64,000 nt of DNA from Alphaproteobacteria bacterium (GTDB lineage Bacteria > Pseudomonadota > Alphaproteobacteria > UBA8366), in assembly GCA_028281325.1 (NCBI GenBank), contig JANQKC010000010.1, forward strand, positions 310,001 to 374,000. The letters are read 5' to 3'. Made by a program: the position numbers and the translations under genes. The notes beneath the pieces are model-generated. The model searched no databases. It saw nothing but the letters and a program-made list of their open reading frames with translations, and was not told the origin of the DNA. Position 1 is the stretch's first letter, and each line of letters opens with the position of its first letter. This document shows, one piece after another, positions 3,292-52,536 of this stretch.

Positions 3292-5202
3292 TCAGGGCTG
3301 GCGGCGGGAGATATCGCTGGCGATGCCGGGCAGGGGCTGCGGCGGGTGTCCTTTCAGCGCCTTGAGCATGAAGCCGCGCCAGATCGACGCGGCCATAGAG
3401 CCGCCATACACCTTGTTCATCGGCGTGAAGTCGTCGTTGCCGAGCCAGACCCCGGCGGCCAGCTCCGGCGTATAGCCGACGAACCAAGCATCGCGGTTGC
3501 CTTGGCTTGTGCCGGTCTTCCCGGCGGCCGGCCGCTCGAGCCGCGCCCGCTTGCCGGTGCCCCAGGCGACCACGGCGGTCAACAGGTCGTTCAGACCCTG
3601 GACGTAGCGCGGCTGCACGATACGCCCGGGGCCGCCGCCGGCGCGGCTGTACAGAATCTCGCCGTCGCCGCCCTGAATCGATTCGATCCCGAAGGGCCAG
3701 ACGCCAAAGCCGCCATTCGCGATCACCGCATAGGCGCCGGTCAGTTCCAGCAGGGTAACCTCATGCGCGCCGAGCGCCAGCGACGGGTCGGCCCGCAACG
3801 GCGCGGTGATGCCGAGCCGCCGGGCGGTCTGGATCACGTTCTTGCGGCCGGCGCGTTCCGTCAACGCCACCGCCACCGTATTGGAGGAGCGCGCCGCCCC
3901 TTCGCGGAAAGTGACGTCGCCGCGATGCGTGCGGCCCGCATTGCGCGGGGTCCATCCCTGTACGGTGATCGGCCGGTCGGACACGGTATCACCCGGCCGC
4001 ATACCCGATTCCAGCGCGGACAGATAGACGAACAGTTTGAAGGCCGAGCCGGGCTGCCGCAGCGCCCGTGTGGCGCGATTATACTGGCTGTCGCCATAGT
4101 CCCGGCCGCCGATCATCGCGCGCACGGCCCCATCCGGCGACAGGGCCACGAAGGCGGCCTGGCCCACCTTGCGCGACGGATTCGCCGCCAGCACGCGCCG
4201 CACCTCCGCCTGCGCGGCGCCTTGCAGCCGTGCGTCCAACGTCGTCCGGATAATCAGGTCGCCGCCGTAGTAACCGATGTAATCGTCGACCCGGTCGAGG
4301 ACCCAATCGGTGAAGTACCGGGCGCCGGTGTAGAATTCCTGGCGCGGCCGCAGTTGCACCGTATCGCGGCGGCTGCGCAGCAGGGTCGTATCAGTGATCC
4401 ACCCCATCCGCGCCATGCTGGCGAGCACGAGATTCGCGCGCGCCGCGGCCCGTTTCGGAGCCACGACCGGGTTGTCGCGCGACGGCGCCTTGACCAGCCC
4501 GGCCAGCACCGCGGCTTCGAACAGTGTCACCTTCTCGATCGAGCGACCGAAATACCGATGCGCCGCCGCGTCGATGCCGTAGGCGCCCGCGCCGAAATAG
4601 ACCCGGTTGAGATAGATCGAAAGGATCTGATCCTTCGTGAAATGGTGTTCCAACCAAATCGCCAGCAGGGTTTCCTGAATTTTACGGCGATACGTCCGTT
4701 CCCGCTTGAGGAACAGGTTCTTCGCAAGCTGCTGGGTAATCGTGCTGCCGCCTTGGCGAATGCCCCCGGCGGCGAGGTTTCGCATCGCGGCGCGCATGAT
4801 GCCGAGAAGGTCGACGCCCGGATGCCGGTAGAACCGCCGGTCCTCGATCGCCAGGAACGCGCGCGGCACGAAAGCCGGCAAGTCCGCGACCTGCACCGGA
4901 CGGCCATGCACCTGACCGTAGCGCGCGAGGATCGAGCCGTCGGACGACTGCACCGTAACCACCGGCTTGCGCTGCGTCGCCTTCTCCAGGTCGGCAATGT
5001 CCGGCAGATCCCGCGCATACCAGGCGACCACCGCGGCGACGCCGATCATCAGCCAGACCGATGCGGTCAGCGAAAACCAGATGAAGCGGGAAAGGAGGGA
5101 CCGTTTCGGCGCCGGCTGCCGCTCGCGACCGCGCGGCGCGGACCGTTTCGCGCGTTTGGCGGGCGGGCGTCGAGTGGGTTTACGGCCGCGCTTGTTGCTC
5201 AT
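3292..5202 (-). CDS. Class A penicillin-binding protein (PBP1A-like bifunctional glycosyltransferase/transpeptidase)
   Basis: A 636-residue bifunctional peptidoglycan synthase. A basic cytoplasmic tail (1-35) leads into one membrane anchor (about 38-62). The GT51 glycosyltransferase domain follows, with EDRRFYRHPG (catalytic Glu120) and GGSTITQQLAKNLFL (152-166). The transpeptidase domain has SAFK (386-389, nucleophile Ser386), SSN (439-441) and KTGTSQ (562-567). All catalytic motifs are present. It lacks the large OB-fold insert of canonical MrcA and ends near 636, so it belongs to the shorter PBP1A/1C-like group common in alphaproteobacteria. It is divergent from irr across a 178-bp AT-rich gap. 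Confidence 0.92.
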   Translation of the reverse strand: MSNKRGRKPTRRPPAKRAKRSAPRGRERQPAPKRSLLSRFIWFSLTASVWLMIGVAAVVAWYARDLPDIADLEKATQRKPVVTVQSSDGSILARYGQVHGRPVQVADLPAFVPRAFLAIEDRRFYRHPGVDLLGIMRAAMRNLAAGGIRQGGSTITQQLAKNLFLKRERTYRRKIQETLLAIWLEHHFTKDQILSIYLNRVYFGAGAYGIDAAAHRYFGRSIEKVTLFEAAVLAGLVKAPSRDNPVVAPKRAAARANLVLASMARMGWITDTTLLRSRRDTVQLRPRQEFYTGARYFTDWVLDRVDDYIGYYGGDLIIRTTLDARLQGAAQAEVRRVLAANPSRKVGQAAFVALSPDGAVRAMIGGRDYGDSQYNRATRALRQPGSAFKLFVYLSALESGMRPGDTVSDRPITVQGWTPRNAGRTHRGDVTFREGAARSSNTVAVALTERAGRKNVIQTARRLGITAPLRADPSLALGAHEVTLLELTGAYAVIANGGFGVWPFGIESIQGGDGEILYSRAGGGPGRIVQPRYVQGLNDLLTAVVAWGTGKRARLERPAAGKTGTSQGNRDAWFVGYTPELAAGVWLGNDDFTPMNKVYGGSMAASIWRGFMLKALKGHPPQPLPGIASDISRRQP

Positions 5203-5380
5203 CGCCCCTATATAGTCCGAGTTGACCCAAATTATCCATCCTTGATGTATGTCGCCAAAGGTCGCCGTGGGATCAACGCGCGTCGGTCGTTAGGGCACAG
5301 ATTTTAATTGTTAAAAACTACGCCTTATTTTATTGTCCGGAACACTTTATTTTTAAGAATTATGGACTAGATTAACGGTC

Positions 5381-5803
5381 ATGACCTCGATTCGTCCGTA
5401 TACCGGCGTTCTGGAACGCCTGAAATCCGCAGGGCTTCGGCCCACGCGGCAACGGCTGGCCTTGGCCAAGCTGTTGTTCGAAGGGGGGGATCGGCATGTC
5501 AGCGCGGAACAACTGCACAGCGAAGCGGTTGCCGATAACATCCGCGTATCGCTGGCCACCGTCTACAACACCTTGCATCAGTTTACCGAGGCGGAGTTGC
5601 TGCGCGAGGTCGTGGTCGAATCCGGTCGGTCGTATTTCGACACCAACACGGGCGACCATCACCATTTCTTCAATGAAGACGGCGGCGCATTGACCGACAT
5701 TCCCGCCGACGCGCTCGACGTCGCGAAACTCCCGGATGCGCCGGACGGCACCGAAGTGAAATGCGTCGATGTCATCATCCGCCTTAAAAATACGTCTTCT
5801 TAA
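5381..5803 (+). CDS. irr: Irr, Fur-family iron/heme-responsive transcriptional regulator
   Basis: A 140-residue Fur-superfamily regulator. The winged-helix domain (about 10-85) contains GLRPTRQRLALAKLLF and VSLATVYNTLHQFTEAEL. The dimer domain has YFDTNTGDHHHFF with the His triplet at 93-95. These sequences match Irr of alphaproteobacteria rather than Fur or Zur, and the C-terminal CxxC zinc sites of Zur are absent. Irr senses heme or iron status and binds ICE sites. It is followed by an ICE-like inverted repeat at 5834-5852 and a rubrerythrin operon, which fits a role in iron and peroxide homeostasis. The N-terminal heme-regulatory Cys-Pro motif of Bradyrhizobium Irr is not seen. Confidence 0.88.
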   Translation: MTSIRPYTGVLERLKSAGLRPTRQRLALAKLLFEGGDRHVSAEQLHSEAVADNIRVSLATVYNTLHQFTEAELLREVVVESGRSYFDTNTGDHHHFFNEDGGALTDIPADALDVAKLPDAPDGTEVKCVDVIIRLKNTSS

Positions 5804-5833
5804 AAAAACGCGCCATCAGGGCGATAATTATTA

Positions 5834-5852
5834 GTTTAGATTCATTCTAAAC
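5834..5852. promoter_or_regulatory. ICE-like Irr operator
   Basis: The 19 bp GTTTAGATTCATTCTAAAC form a perfect inverted repeat (GTTTAGA, 5-bp centre, TCTAAAC). This closely resembles the iron-control element TTTAGAA-N3-TTCTAAA bound by Irr. It lies 31 bp after the irr stop, ends 2 bp before the -35 hexamer of the rubrerythrin promoter, and could control irr read-through, the rubrerythrin gene, or both. Confidence 0.7.
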
Positions 5853-5854
5853 TA

Positions 5855-5883
5855 TTGACAGGCGGTATGCTCCGGTCCATATA
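5855..5883 (+). promoter_or_regulatory. Promoter of rubrerythrin operon
   Basis: TTGACA at 5855-5860 is a perfect -35 hexamer. With a 17-bp spacer the -10 is CATATA at 5878-5883; an 18-bp spacer gives ATATAG. The predicted leader is about 105 nt. The ICE-like repeat touches the -35, so Irr bound there would contact RNA polymerase. Confidence 0.6.
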
Positions 5884-5995
5884 GGTGGTGTGCGCATTTG
5901 CGATTGTTGTCGGATGGCTTGCCGACGACTCTCATGGCGCTGGCGCGCGCACTGTTCAGTATTCTTCGTCAGGGAATGGGTATTAGGAGGAAGTA

Positions 5996-6412
5996 ATGTC
6001 TCTAAAGGGAAGCAAGACCGAAACGAACTTGAAAGACGCTTTTGCGGGCGAGAGCCAGGCAAATCGTCGCTATCTCTATTTCGCGCAGAAGGCGGACATC
6101 GAAGGCTACAACGATGTCGCCGCCGTGTTCCGGTCGACCGCCGAAGGCGAGACCGGCCATGCGCACGGCCATCTTGAGTTTCTAGAGGAAGTCGGCGATC
6201 CCGCGACGGGCGAGCCGATCGGCGAAACGTCATTGAATCTCAAAGCCGCGGTCGCCGGCGAGACGCACGAGTACACCGACATGTACCCGGGCATGGCCCG
6301 CACCGCCCGCGAGGAAGGTTTCGACGAAATCGCGGATTGGTTCGAAACGCTGGCGAAGGCGGAAAAGAGTCACGCCGGCCGTTTCCAAAAGGCTTTGGAC
6401 GAAATTTCCTAA
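5996..6412 (+). CDS. Rubrerythrin-family diiron protein
   Basis: A 138-residue protein preceded by a strong AGGAGGAAG ribosome site. It is the four-helix diiron domain of rubrerythrin: TNLKDAFAGESQANRRYLYF (about 10-29, first Glu ligand), EGETGHAHGHLEFLEE (ExxH pair near 48-51), KAAVAGETHEYTDMYPGMA and KAEKSHAGRF (second ExxH). The C-terminal rubredoxin domain is absent, so electrons must come from a separate donor. Rubrerythrins reduce hydrogen peroxide. The next two genes, an Fe-S protein and a DUF3501 protein, are a recurrent trio with short rubrerythrins and may supply electrons. An Irr operator sits at its promoter. Confidence 0.9.
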   Translation: MSLKGSKTETNLKDAFAGESQANRRYLYFAQKADIEGYNDVAAVFRSTAEGETGHAHGHLEFLEEVGDPATGEPIGETSLNLKAAVAGETHEYTDMYPGMARTAREEGFDEIADWFETLAKAEKSHAGRFQKALDEIS

Positions 6413-6420
6413 GCCGATTC

Positions 6421-6456
6421 CGGGCGGGGGCTAAGGCCCCCGACCCGTTGATTTTT
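6421..6456 (+). terminator. Hairpin with T-rich tail after rubrerythrin (terminator or attenuator)
   Basis: A GC-rich stem (CGGGCGGGGG pairing with CCCCCGACCCG across CTAAGG) is followed by TTGATTTTT. It lies between the rubrerythrin stop and the start of the Fe-S gene, so it may reduce rather than stop read-through, giving more rubrerythrin than its downstream partners. Confidence 0.5.
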
Positions 6457-6490
6457 GCTATGCCACTGGCATTTCCATAGGAACGGAACG

Positions 6491-7834
6491 ATGAGTGAAG
6501 GCAGCCTAGAGGCGCCGATACGGCACCCCATTGCCTGGCAGGATGCCGATTTCTACGACGAGGCCAAGCTCGACGAAGAGCTTCGCCGCGTTTTCGACAT
6601 CTGTCACGGGTGCCGCCGATGCTTCAATCTTTGCGACAGTTTTCCGCGCTTGTTCGACCTGATCGACGAGTCGGAAAGCGGCGAACTGGACACGGTCGAC
6701 AGCAAAGACTTCAAGCCGGTCGTCGACGCCTGCACGCTCTGCGACATGTGCTTCATGACCAAGTGTCCGTACGTGCCACCCCATGAATTCAACCTGGATT
6801 TCCCGCACCTCATGCTGCGCTACCGCGCGATCGAACAGAAGAAAGGCATGCGGACCGCGGCGGAAACCCAGTTGACCGAAACCGACCGCAACGGCCGCCT
6901 GGCCGGCGGCATGGCGGGCCTGGCCAACTGGGCCAGCAAGGAAGGCAACAGCCTGACACGGCCGGTCATGCAGGCCATCGCCGGCGTCCACAAGGACGCC
7001 GCCTTGCCGAAGTTCAACGGCCGCACCTTCTCCGCCCGCGCCAAGTCGGACCCGCCCGCCGTGAACGCGGACGCGCCCGCTTACGGCCGCAAGGCGGTGC
7101 TCTACGCGACCTGCTACGCGAACTACAACAACCCGGAAATCGGCGTCGCCACGCAAGCGGTGCTGGCGCGGAACGGCGTCGAGACCGAGGTGGTGTATCC
7201 GGAATGCTGCGGCATGCCCCAGCTCGAACACGGCGACATCGCCAAGGTCGCGGACAAGGCGAAGGCCGTCGCTGGCGCATTGGCGCCTTGGATCGAGAAG
7301 GGCTACGACGTGATCGCCTTGGTGCCGAGCTGCGCCCTGATGCTGAAATTCGAATGGCCGCTGATCGTCCCGGACAACGACGCGGTGAAAACCCTGTCGC
7401 AGGCCACCCGCGATATCTCTGAGTATGTCGTCGACATCGCCAAGACCGAAGGCTTGGCCGACGGCCTGCAGTCGCTGGACGGCGGCGTGTCGATGCATTT
7501 GGCCTGCCATGCGCGGGCGCAGAACATGGGGGCGAAAGCGGCTGAGATGCTGCGCCTGCTGCCCGAGGCCGATGTCGCGGTGATCGAGCGCTGCTCCGGC
7601 CATGGCGGATCGTGGGGCGTGATGAAGGATAACTTCGAGGTCGGGCTGAAGGTCGGGAAACCGGTGGCCCGGACGACGGTCAAGAACGCCAAGCATTATC
7701 TCGCCTCGGAATGCCCGCTCGCCGGCATGCATATCGCCCAAGGCGTGGAGCGGCTGGACGGCGACAAACCGGCGATCGAAACCGTTGCGCACCCGATTAT
7801 ACTGTTTGCGCAAGCCTACGGACTTACCGCCTGA
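6491..7834 (+). CDS. GlpC/heterodisulfide-reductase-like Fe-S protein
   Basis: A 447-residue soluble protein with two ferredoxin-type 4Fe-4S motifs: CHGCRRCFNLC (about residues 40-50) and CTLCDMCFMTKCP (about 81-93). Two CCG domains follow, one ending VYPECCGMP and the other with HLACHARAQNMG then ERCSGHGGSW. This is the GlpC / heterodisulfide-reductase subunit D-like architecture, which relays electrons to or from a thiol or quinone partner. ATG 6491 was chosen over the upstream 6455 because it has an AGGAA-like ribosome site and the family N-terminus. Position between a rubredoxin-less rubrerythrin and DUF3501 suggests it is the reductase branch of a peroxide-reducing system (inference). 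Confidence 0.85.
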   Translation: MSEGSLEAPIRHPIAWQDADFYDEAKLDEELRRVFDICHGCRRCFNLCDSFPRLFDLIDESESGELDTVDSKDFKPVVDACTLCDMCFMTKCPYVPPHEFNLDFPHLMLRYRAIEQKKGMRTAAETQLTETDRNGRLAGGMAGLANWASKEGNSLTRPVMQAIAGVHKDAALPKFNGRTFSARAKSDPPAVNADAPAYGRKAVLYATCYANYNNPEIGVATQAVLARNGVETEVVYPECCGMPQLEHGDIAKVADKAKAVAGALAPWIEKGYDVIALVPSCALMLKFEWPLIVPDNDAVKTLSQATRDISEYVVDIAKTEGLADGLQSLDGGVSMHLACHARAQNMGAKAAEMLRLLPEADVAVIERCSGHGGSWGVMKDNFEVGLKVGKPVARTTVKNAKHYLASECPLAGMHIAQGVERLDGDKPAIETVAHPIILFAQAYGLTA

Positions 7835-7866
7835 CCGGATGGGACGATAGGAAAGAGATTAGGACG

Positions 7867-8463
7867 ATGGACATGGCTACGAGAACCGAGATCACGCGCA
7901 GCGATATCATGCCGATCGAGGAGTTTTCCGCGATTCGCAAGGATAAACGCGGCGAGATTTCCGCGATCAAGAAAAACCGGCGCGTCGAGATCGGACCGGT
8001 CGCAACGGCGTATTTCGAGAATTACGACACGATGTGGTGGCAGATTCACGAGATGCTGTTCATCGAAAAGGGCGGCGAGGAACAGATCCCCGATGAACTG
8101 GCGGCCTATAACCCGCTGATCCCGAAAGGCCGGGAACTGGTCTGCACGGTCATGTTCGAGATCGACGACCCGATCCGGCGCGCCAATTTCCTGGCGCGGC
8201 TCGGCGGCGTCGAGGAAACGATGTTCCTGGAGTTCGACGGCGAGACCATCGTCGGCCAGCCGGAGGAAGACGTCGACCGCACCACCGCCGACGGCAAGGC
8301 GTCTTCCGTGCAGTTCATCCATCTGCCCTTTACCGATCAGCAGGCGGAGAAATTCAGCGCCCCCGGCACCCAGGTCATCATTGGGTTCCGCCATCCGCAA
8401 TACGGCCACATGACCGTGATGCCGGAGGCATCGCGCGCCGCCCTGGCCAGCGACTTCAGCTAA
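7867..8463 (+). CDS. DUF3501 family protein
   Basis: A 198-residue soluble protein with the family's conserved opening RSDIMPIEEFSAIRKDKR and VEIGPVATAYFENYDTMWWQ. The biochemical role of DUF3501 is unknown, but it is repeatedly found directly after rubrerythrin and a GlpC-like Fe-S protein, as here (32-bp gap, same strand). ATG 7867 is preceded by AGGACG. An upstream extension of the frame overlaps the Fe-S gene and is not used. It ends 15 bp before the convergent SH3 gene. Confidence 0.82.
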   Translation: MDMATRTEITRSDIMPIEEFSAIRKDKRGEISAIKKNRRVEIGPVATAYFENYDTMWWQIHEMLFIEKGGEEQIPDELAAYNPLIPKGRELVCTVMFEIDDPIRRANFLARLGGVEETMFLEFDGETIVGQPEEDVDRTTADGKASSVQFIHLPFTDQQAEKFSAPGTQVIIGFRHPQYGHMTVMPEASRAALASDFS

Positions 8464-52107: not shown

Positions 52108-52536
52108 TTATTTTTTTGCCTTTTTCTTATTTTTTACTGGAGTTCCATAGAGTTCAAGGCGGTGATCGACGAGATCGAATCCCAATTTCTTTGCCACTTC
52201 ACGTTGCAAGGCTTCGATTTCTTCGTTTTGGAATTCGATTACCTCGCCAGTCTCTACATTGATTAGATGGTCGTGATGGTTGTCGGTCGCTTCTTCATAG
52301 CGCGACCGGCCGTCGCGAAAATCGTGCCGTTCCAGGATATCGGCCTCTTCGAACAGCCGCACGGTCCGGTAGACCGTGGCGATGCTGATGCGTGGATCGA
52401 TGTCCAAGGCACGGCGATGCAAGGCCTCGACGTCGGGATGGTCGGTCGCTTCCGACAACACCCGTGCAATCACGCGCCGTTGCGCGGTCATTTTCAGACC
52501 CTTATCGGCGCACAGTTTTTCTATTCTATCCAACAC
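52108..52536 (-). CDS. fur: Fur-family transcriptional regulator (Fur/Mur type)
   Basis: A 142-residue metalloregulator. The winged helix has GLKMTAQRRVIARVLSEA and ISIATVYRTVRLFEEADI; the metal site has FRDGRSRYEEATDNHHDHLI. The C-terminal CxxC zinc pair is absent, as in alphaproteobacterial Fur/Mur proteins, and a lysine-rich end (KNKKKAKK) follows. It is distinct from Irr at 5381 and probably senses iron or manganese. Whether it acts as Fur or Mur cannot be settled here. Confidence 0.85.
   Translation of the reverse strand: MLDRIEKLCADKGLKMTAQRRVIARVLSEATDHPDVEALHRRALDIDPRISIATVYRTVRLFEEADILERHDFRDGRSRYEEATDNHHDHLINVETGEVIEFQNEEIEALQREVAKKLGFDLVDHRLELYGTPVKNKKKAKK

Follow-up and report, generated by a model that had tools for sequence, protein, structure and literature searches.

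Within the window, a stretch of 64,000 nucleotides from an alphaproteobacterial contig, a Fur-family gene (irr) lies directly upstream of a peroxidase gene, that for a rubrerythrin (rbr), with a probable operator between them. The question raised by this locus is which protein would bind the operator and whether binding would turn the peroxidase gene on or off. With modest confidence, we favor the reading that the site is the Irr operator of the rbr operon and acts by repression.

The palindrome and its neighbors

The features of the window that bear on this question, with the support for each, are:

5381..5803, plus strand: irr, Fur-family iron response regulator of 140 aa (NCBIfam IrrA, FeRespRegIrr; Pfam FUR)
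5833..5853, no strand: putative Irr box (ICE), a 21-bp palindrome with core 5834-5852 (sequence, genome uniqueness, position weight matrix [PWM], class-wide conservation)
5855..5860, plus strand: -35 hexamer TTGACA, which begins 20 bp after the initial T of TTTAGA (conserved TTGAC)
5878..5883, plus strand: probable -10 hexamer CATATA at 17-bp spacing (rise in A+T at +43..+48 in the anchored alignment)
5996..6412, plus strand: rbr, rubrerythrin of 138 aa without a rubredoxin domain (Pfam Rubrerythrin; matches to solved structures)
6491..7834, plus strand: GlpC-like Fe-S protein with a CCG domain (Pfam CCG)
7858..8463, plus strand: DUF3501 protein (Pfam DUF3501)

The product of the upstream gene is an Irr protein, with scores of 213.5 bits against NCBIfam IrrA NF045678 (cut-off 150) and 193.4 bits against FeRespRegIrr (cut-off 170). 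Its translation contains the HxH heme-binding motif (GDHHHFF), and an HHH motif is present in 153 of the 164 Irr proteins encoded next to rbr. An N-terminal CP heme regulatory motif, on the other hand, is missing from the window protein and from 156 of the 164, in a scan that also covered sequence upstream of the start and whose eight positives include false ones. Because the window protein lacks this motif, the degradation route of Bradyrhizobium is not to be assumed for it, and the sensing step is likely to be the HxH heme site (passages of the review PMC7762939). A second, canonical FUR-domain protein is encoded at about 52147-52503 on the minus strand of the window (130 bits).

The downstream gene, which is preceded by AGGAGG at 5985-5990, encodes a rubrerythrin: its product matched the ferritin-like domain PF02915 with 107.2 bits (cut-off 22.8), and its nearest solved structures are the rubrerythrins 9onm and 4di0 (239 bits). 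A C-terminal rubredoxin domain was not found, the match to NCBIfam RuberyRbr reaching 139.9 bits (cut-off 200) and stopping at position 145 of 194. In each of the 74 named loci whose sequence extends 2.3 kb or more beyond rbr (54 with an adjacent irr and 20 without; 6 shorter loci were set aside), rbr is followed by genes for the CCG-domain Fe-S protein and for the DUF3501 protein. From this constancy, rbr and the two genes behind it probably form one operon, which the box would probably serve, and the Fe-S protein could serve as the electron donor that is missing in a rubrerythrin without rubredoxin. The same three-gene block (5996-8463; L028-L107) also occurs outside irr-bearing lineages.

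The palindrome itself, GTTTAGATTCATTCTAAAC, was read from the sequence at 5834-5852 on the plus strand, 30 bp on from the end of irr at 5803 and separated from TTGACA by the two-base spacer TA. It consists of two 9-bp arms with one mismatch (GTTTAGATT and ATTCTAAAC) around a central C, and A 5833 and T 5853 extend it to 21 bp. The sequence-only reading had placed GTTTAGA-N5-TCTAAAC just behind irr, its end 2 bp from TTGACA, and these positions were confirmed: a search of the window for GTTTAGAN5TCTAAAC with up to three mismatches gave one match, at 5834-5852, with none. The genome-wide search that the same reading had proposed was also carried out, and the window site is the sole perfect occurrence of TTTAGAN5TCTAAA in the 5.1-Mb genome; three other sites have one mismatch, and the remaining matches listed have two. 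With the Irr box consensus TTTAGAAT-N-ATTCTAAA, which we re-derived here from rbr promoters, the window box agrees in 15 of 16 letters, and it scores 26.6 of a possible 31.1 with the PWM.

The -35 hexamer is supported because it is conserved among relatives and not by promoter prediction, as a simple promoter scan did not include the rbr promoter of the window in its list. The -10 hexamer is weak by comparison with TATAAT. In the alphaproteobacterial register it would instead be CCATAT at 5877-5882, and transcription of rbr would start near 5890. An Rfam scan of 5200-6500 gave no match at the gathering threshold and hence no sign of a known structured RNA in the irr-rbr intergenic region. Autoregulation of irr through the box was considered and set aside, as the box lies downstream of irr and the window has no other site at up to three mismatches.

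Conservation of the box with irr

We read 201 rbr promoters: that of the window, those of 80 named loci, and those of 120 stretches taken from 385 genomes sampled across the class, the 80 named loci being the best rbr matches, so that the sample is biased toward close relatives of this rbr. In 164 of the 201, irr lies upstream on the same strand. At least 12 letters of the fixed 16-letter consensus were found within 300 bp in 150 of these 164 promoters, as compared to 141 of 3280 mononucleotide shuffles of them and 11 of the 37 promoters without an adjacent irr. With the PWM at a threshold of 15 the box was found in 148 of the 164, a count that is partly circular because the matrix was built from the same promoters.

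The box also follows the presence of irr in the genome, which was judged by one family search. In the class sample and seven extra genomes, and at a PWM score of at least 15, the box was present at rbr in 93 of 107 cases with an adjacent irr, in 5 of 6 with irr elsewhere in the genome, and in 1 of 13 with no irr detected (Fisher 0.003 for irr elsewhere versus none detected); lowering the threshold to 10 raised the last figure to 2 of 13. In one genome (G199) a weakly scoring irr accompanies an rbr box that scores 16.4. The one exception above the higher threshold is G191 (L260), whose rbr box is nearly perfect (30.6) and in whose assembly, 96% complete, no Irr was found; its relatives in family f77 do have irr.

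These comparisons bear on what the palindrome is. A palindrome that stands beside the promoter by chance can hardly be credited: such palindromes do arise at up to three mismatches in shuffled windows (mean 0.33 matches, with at least one in 27 of 100), but the match in the window is perfect and unique in its genome, and both its sequence and its place are kept across the class; we rejected chance on this conservation. Binding by another Fur-family protein, a Fur/Mur protein or a peroxide sensor, also seems improbable. It would accommodate the box of G191, and the genome of the window holds three further FUR-domain matches; yet the box follows the presence of irr and is of the same type as the Irr-bound box at mbfA, and the irr-less genomes G052, G250, G120, and G141 yield weaker Fur-family hits with the Irr model but have no box. 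The earlier proposal of an Irr operator thus finds good support in comparison, in that the box is kept with irr, holds a nearly fixed place at the -35 hexamer, and is missing from nearly all genomes in which no irr was detected. The palindrome at 5834-5852 is, very probably, the operator through which Irr would act on rbr.

Seven rbr promoters of sphingomonad type (L051, L055, L067, L074, L091, L095, and L107) have no Irr box and carry another palindrome, TTGCGAnnnnnTCGCAA or similar, which probably serves a different Fur-family regulator. Two records labeled Gammaproteobacteria and Flavobacteriales (L047 and L086) contain an irr-box-rbr block of alphaproteobacterial type and are probably mislabeled or mixed bins.

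The place behind irr may also be taken by katG. Among 40 irr-positive genomes picked by hand, 39 of which lack rbr, katG was found in 29 (30 loci), and at five of these loci irr lies directly upstream with a box between. The TTGAC offset there is +20 in L320 and L330 and +22 in L331 and L332; L333 has a weaker box (13.5) and an ambiguous spacing. In another genome (G128, L319) the order is box-TTGAC-katG, followed by irr and rbr. Several other katG loci have a box without irr alongside, and in L307, L310, and L323 the box lies, by eye, between -35-like and -10-like sequences. In these lineages, therefore, the gene in the slot behind irr is that of a peroxidase, be it rbr or katG.

Placement of the box relative to the promoter

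The distance between the box and the -35 hexamer is nearly fixed. Counting from the first T of TTTAGA, TTGAC lies at +19..+23 in 130 of the 148 boxed irr-adjacent rbr promoters and at exactly +20 in 100, the window sharing this commonest offset; among 126 non-redundant box-anchored promoters the corresponding counts are 99 and 72. Shuffled downstream sequence has TTGAC in the same range in 26 of 7400 cases. Over the 130 promoters the standard deviation of the box-to-TTGAC offset is 0.84 bp versus 38 bp for the distance from TTGAC to ATG, and a -10 matching in at least four of six positions is present in 117 versus 26 of 130 in shuffles. The rest of the 148 have no TTGAC near (12), the box in the spacer (4), or the box at the start region (2). 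Promoters in which the box lies over the spacer or start instead are L100, L174, L175, L176, L210, and L226, and those with an extra box there are L075, L086, L088, L098, L101, and L269.

A strict pattern combining box and -35, which misses the window itself owing to the one arm mismatch, occurred 25 times in the 385 genomes, and its backwards control not at all. The gene concerned is rbr at 22 of these loci (directly behind the motif at 21 and 1.3 kb on at L288) and katG at two (L285 and L299, confirmed by family search), with neither gene at one (L286).

The geometry extends to SAR11. Rubrerythrin genes of this type are present in 17 of 59 SAR11 family genomes, in every case with irr upstream of rbr and with TTCTAAACT(A/G)TTGAC. 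In L269 irr is accompanied by a half-degenerate box with TTGAC at the same spacing, and several SAR11 promoters, that of L269 included, have a second box between the -35 and -10.

The boxes at mbfA are placed differently. We examined 25 mbfA-like regions, 17 from genomes with irr and 8 from genomes without. Seven of the 17 have an upstream box (scores 11.8-31.1), which lies by eye over a -10 or the region of the start; in the three nearest cases it precedes the ATG by 12-18 bp. TTGAC is absent from +19..+23 in all seven, whereas the rbr box abuts the -35 from upstream. This placement agrees with passages of a study of Rhodobacter sphaeroides in which the 5' end of mbfA falls inside the Irr box (PMC3413700). 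No upstream box was seen in the other 10 of the 17, among which L256 and L257 are probably not mbfA, L241 gave no start, and L255 scores only inside the gene, or in any of the eight regions from irr-less genomes, where one weak match lies inside a gene.

In the genome of the window, a perfect Irr core (L007/L228, G000:C26:87382) lies upstream of a Dps-like gene, so named from its ORF sequence and not by family search, and by eye over a -10-like TATATT. L007 was counted among the one-mismatch sites of this genome; the others are L008 and L006, the latter at the 3' end of an ORF.

Sign of control and known systems

In the mechanism that we favor, heme-free Irr, abundant or active during iron or heme shortage, would sit at its operator in the promoter of the rbr-CCG-DUF3501 operon about one base from the -35 hexamer, where it would most likely hinder RNA polymerase and keep an iron-consuming peroxidase off. 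Heme, perhaps together with peroxide damage to Irr, would release it from the promoter. Repression by heme-free Irr strikes us as fairly probable and is favored over activation, in which Irr beside the -35 would contact polymerase and raise rbr expression when iron or heme is short, a non-heme peroxidase then replacing heme catalases. Activation is possible but rather unlikely.

Several lines of evidence count for repression. Irr of Bradyrhizobium represses bfr and mbfA (excerpts of PMC4902296), and irr mutants of Rhodobacter, Brucella, and Agrobacterium show better resistance to oxidative stress (passages of PMC3413700), both of which we counted in its favor at rbr. In some genomes the heme enzyme KatG replaces rubrerythrin under the same box, an arrangement that would be sensible for repression in heme shortage and that speaks against activation. 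The promoters have good -35 and -10 elements and look competent without help, and the alternative or extra boxes over spacer or start are placements that fit repression. A box centered near -47 is, moreover, not at the usual class II position for an activator.

Other evidence points toward activation. At rbr the box precedes the -35 and does not cover the -10 as it does at mbfA, where the placement is that of a repressor. The sequence-only reading had held that in Bradyrhizobium ICE position decides between activation and repression, a statement also made in passages of a review citing Bradyrhizobium work (PMC7762939). Near-constant spacing is what contact-dependent activation would require, and L269 of SAR11 keeps irr, TTGAC, and the spacing with a half-degenerate box, though its second box in the spacer argues the other way. 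We rejected fixed spacing as proof of activation, since the outcome would be no different if one promoter had been inherited while the gene behind it was exchanged. A finding at odds with simple repression under low iron comes from the part of PMC2864753 containing its Table 1, which gives a 1.57-fold rise (P 0.025) in rbr mRNA of Candidatus Pelagibacter ubique under iron limitation. The rbr responses of this organism are not specific to iron, because sulfur limitation also shifts rbr mRNA (0.17 of control) and protein (2.24 of control; excerpts of PMC5069961).

The ccpA gene of R. sphaeroides, whose geometry is similar to that of rbr in that its Irr box precedes the transcription start by about 40 nt, gives mixed signals on the sign of control (passages of PMC3413700). 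With peroxide ccpA falls about 5-fold while mbfA rises 9-fold, which argues against repression, though in an irr mutant at low iron ccpA is 1.8-fold higher. In our own control of Rhodobacter-type ccpA, 15 CCP_MauG loci from 7 of 15 genomes, a box scoring at least 13 was found in L337 only, with no TTGAC at the rbr spacing.

It is conceivable, if unlikely, that one box has two signs by position throughout the class, heme-free Irr turning iron storage off from the -10 of mbfA- and dps-type promoters and peroxide defense on from the -35 of rbr and katG, from SAR11 to Kiloniellaceae. The same box abutting the -35 of rbr and katG and overlying the -10 of mbfA and dps would offer a clean test of what sets the sign of control by Fur-family proteins.

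In palindrome type and regulator the box resembles the ICE or Irr box at iron genes of Bradyrhizobium and Rhodobacter (bfr, mbfA, hmu, and ccpA); the ICE of hmuR/hmuT reportedly lies upstream of the promoter. In gene order the locus resembles furA-katG of Actinobacteria and perR-rbr of anaerobes, in which a Fur-family regulator gene likewise stands beside the peroxidase gene that it controls. It differs from both in that the irr slot may hold rbr or katG and in that Irr, in the cases covered by passages of PMC7762939, answers to heme and not to metal-catalyzed oxidation. Neither Irr boxes nor Irr sites at peroxidase genes are new (passages of PMC3413700 and PMC2464607): the Irr regulon of Rodionov et al. 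(2006), as described there, has predicted sites at genes for iron proteins and peroxidases, and PMC2464607 likens Irr to the oxidative-stress Fur of Actinobacteria on account of predicted sites at catalase-peroxidases. The class-wide fixed geometry and the exchange of rbr for katG seem less familiar, and the titles and abstract openings searched, in a collection with few of the subscription papers, gave no description of an irr-rbr pair. If the favored reading is true, a heme-sensing iron regulator would directly control peroxide defense in much of the Alphaproteobacteria, SAR11 included.

Finally, we note two unusual arrangements at rbr. In family f143 (L174 and L175) the Irr box is found beyond the -10, where transcription probably starts, possibly a change of regulatory logic. 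In the alphaproteobacterial lineage MED-G09 (L086 and L088), TTGAC of rbr is flanked by two near-perfect boxes 32 bp apart.
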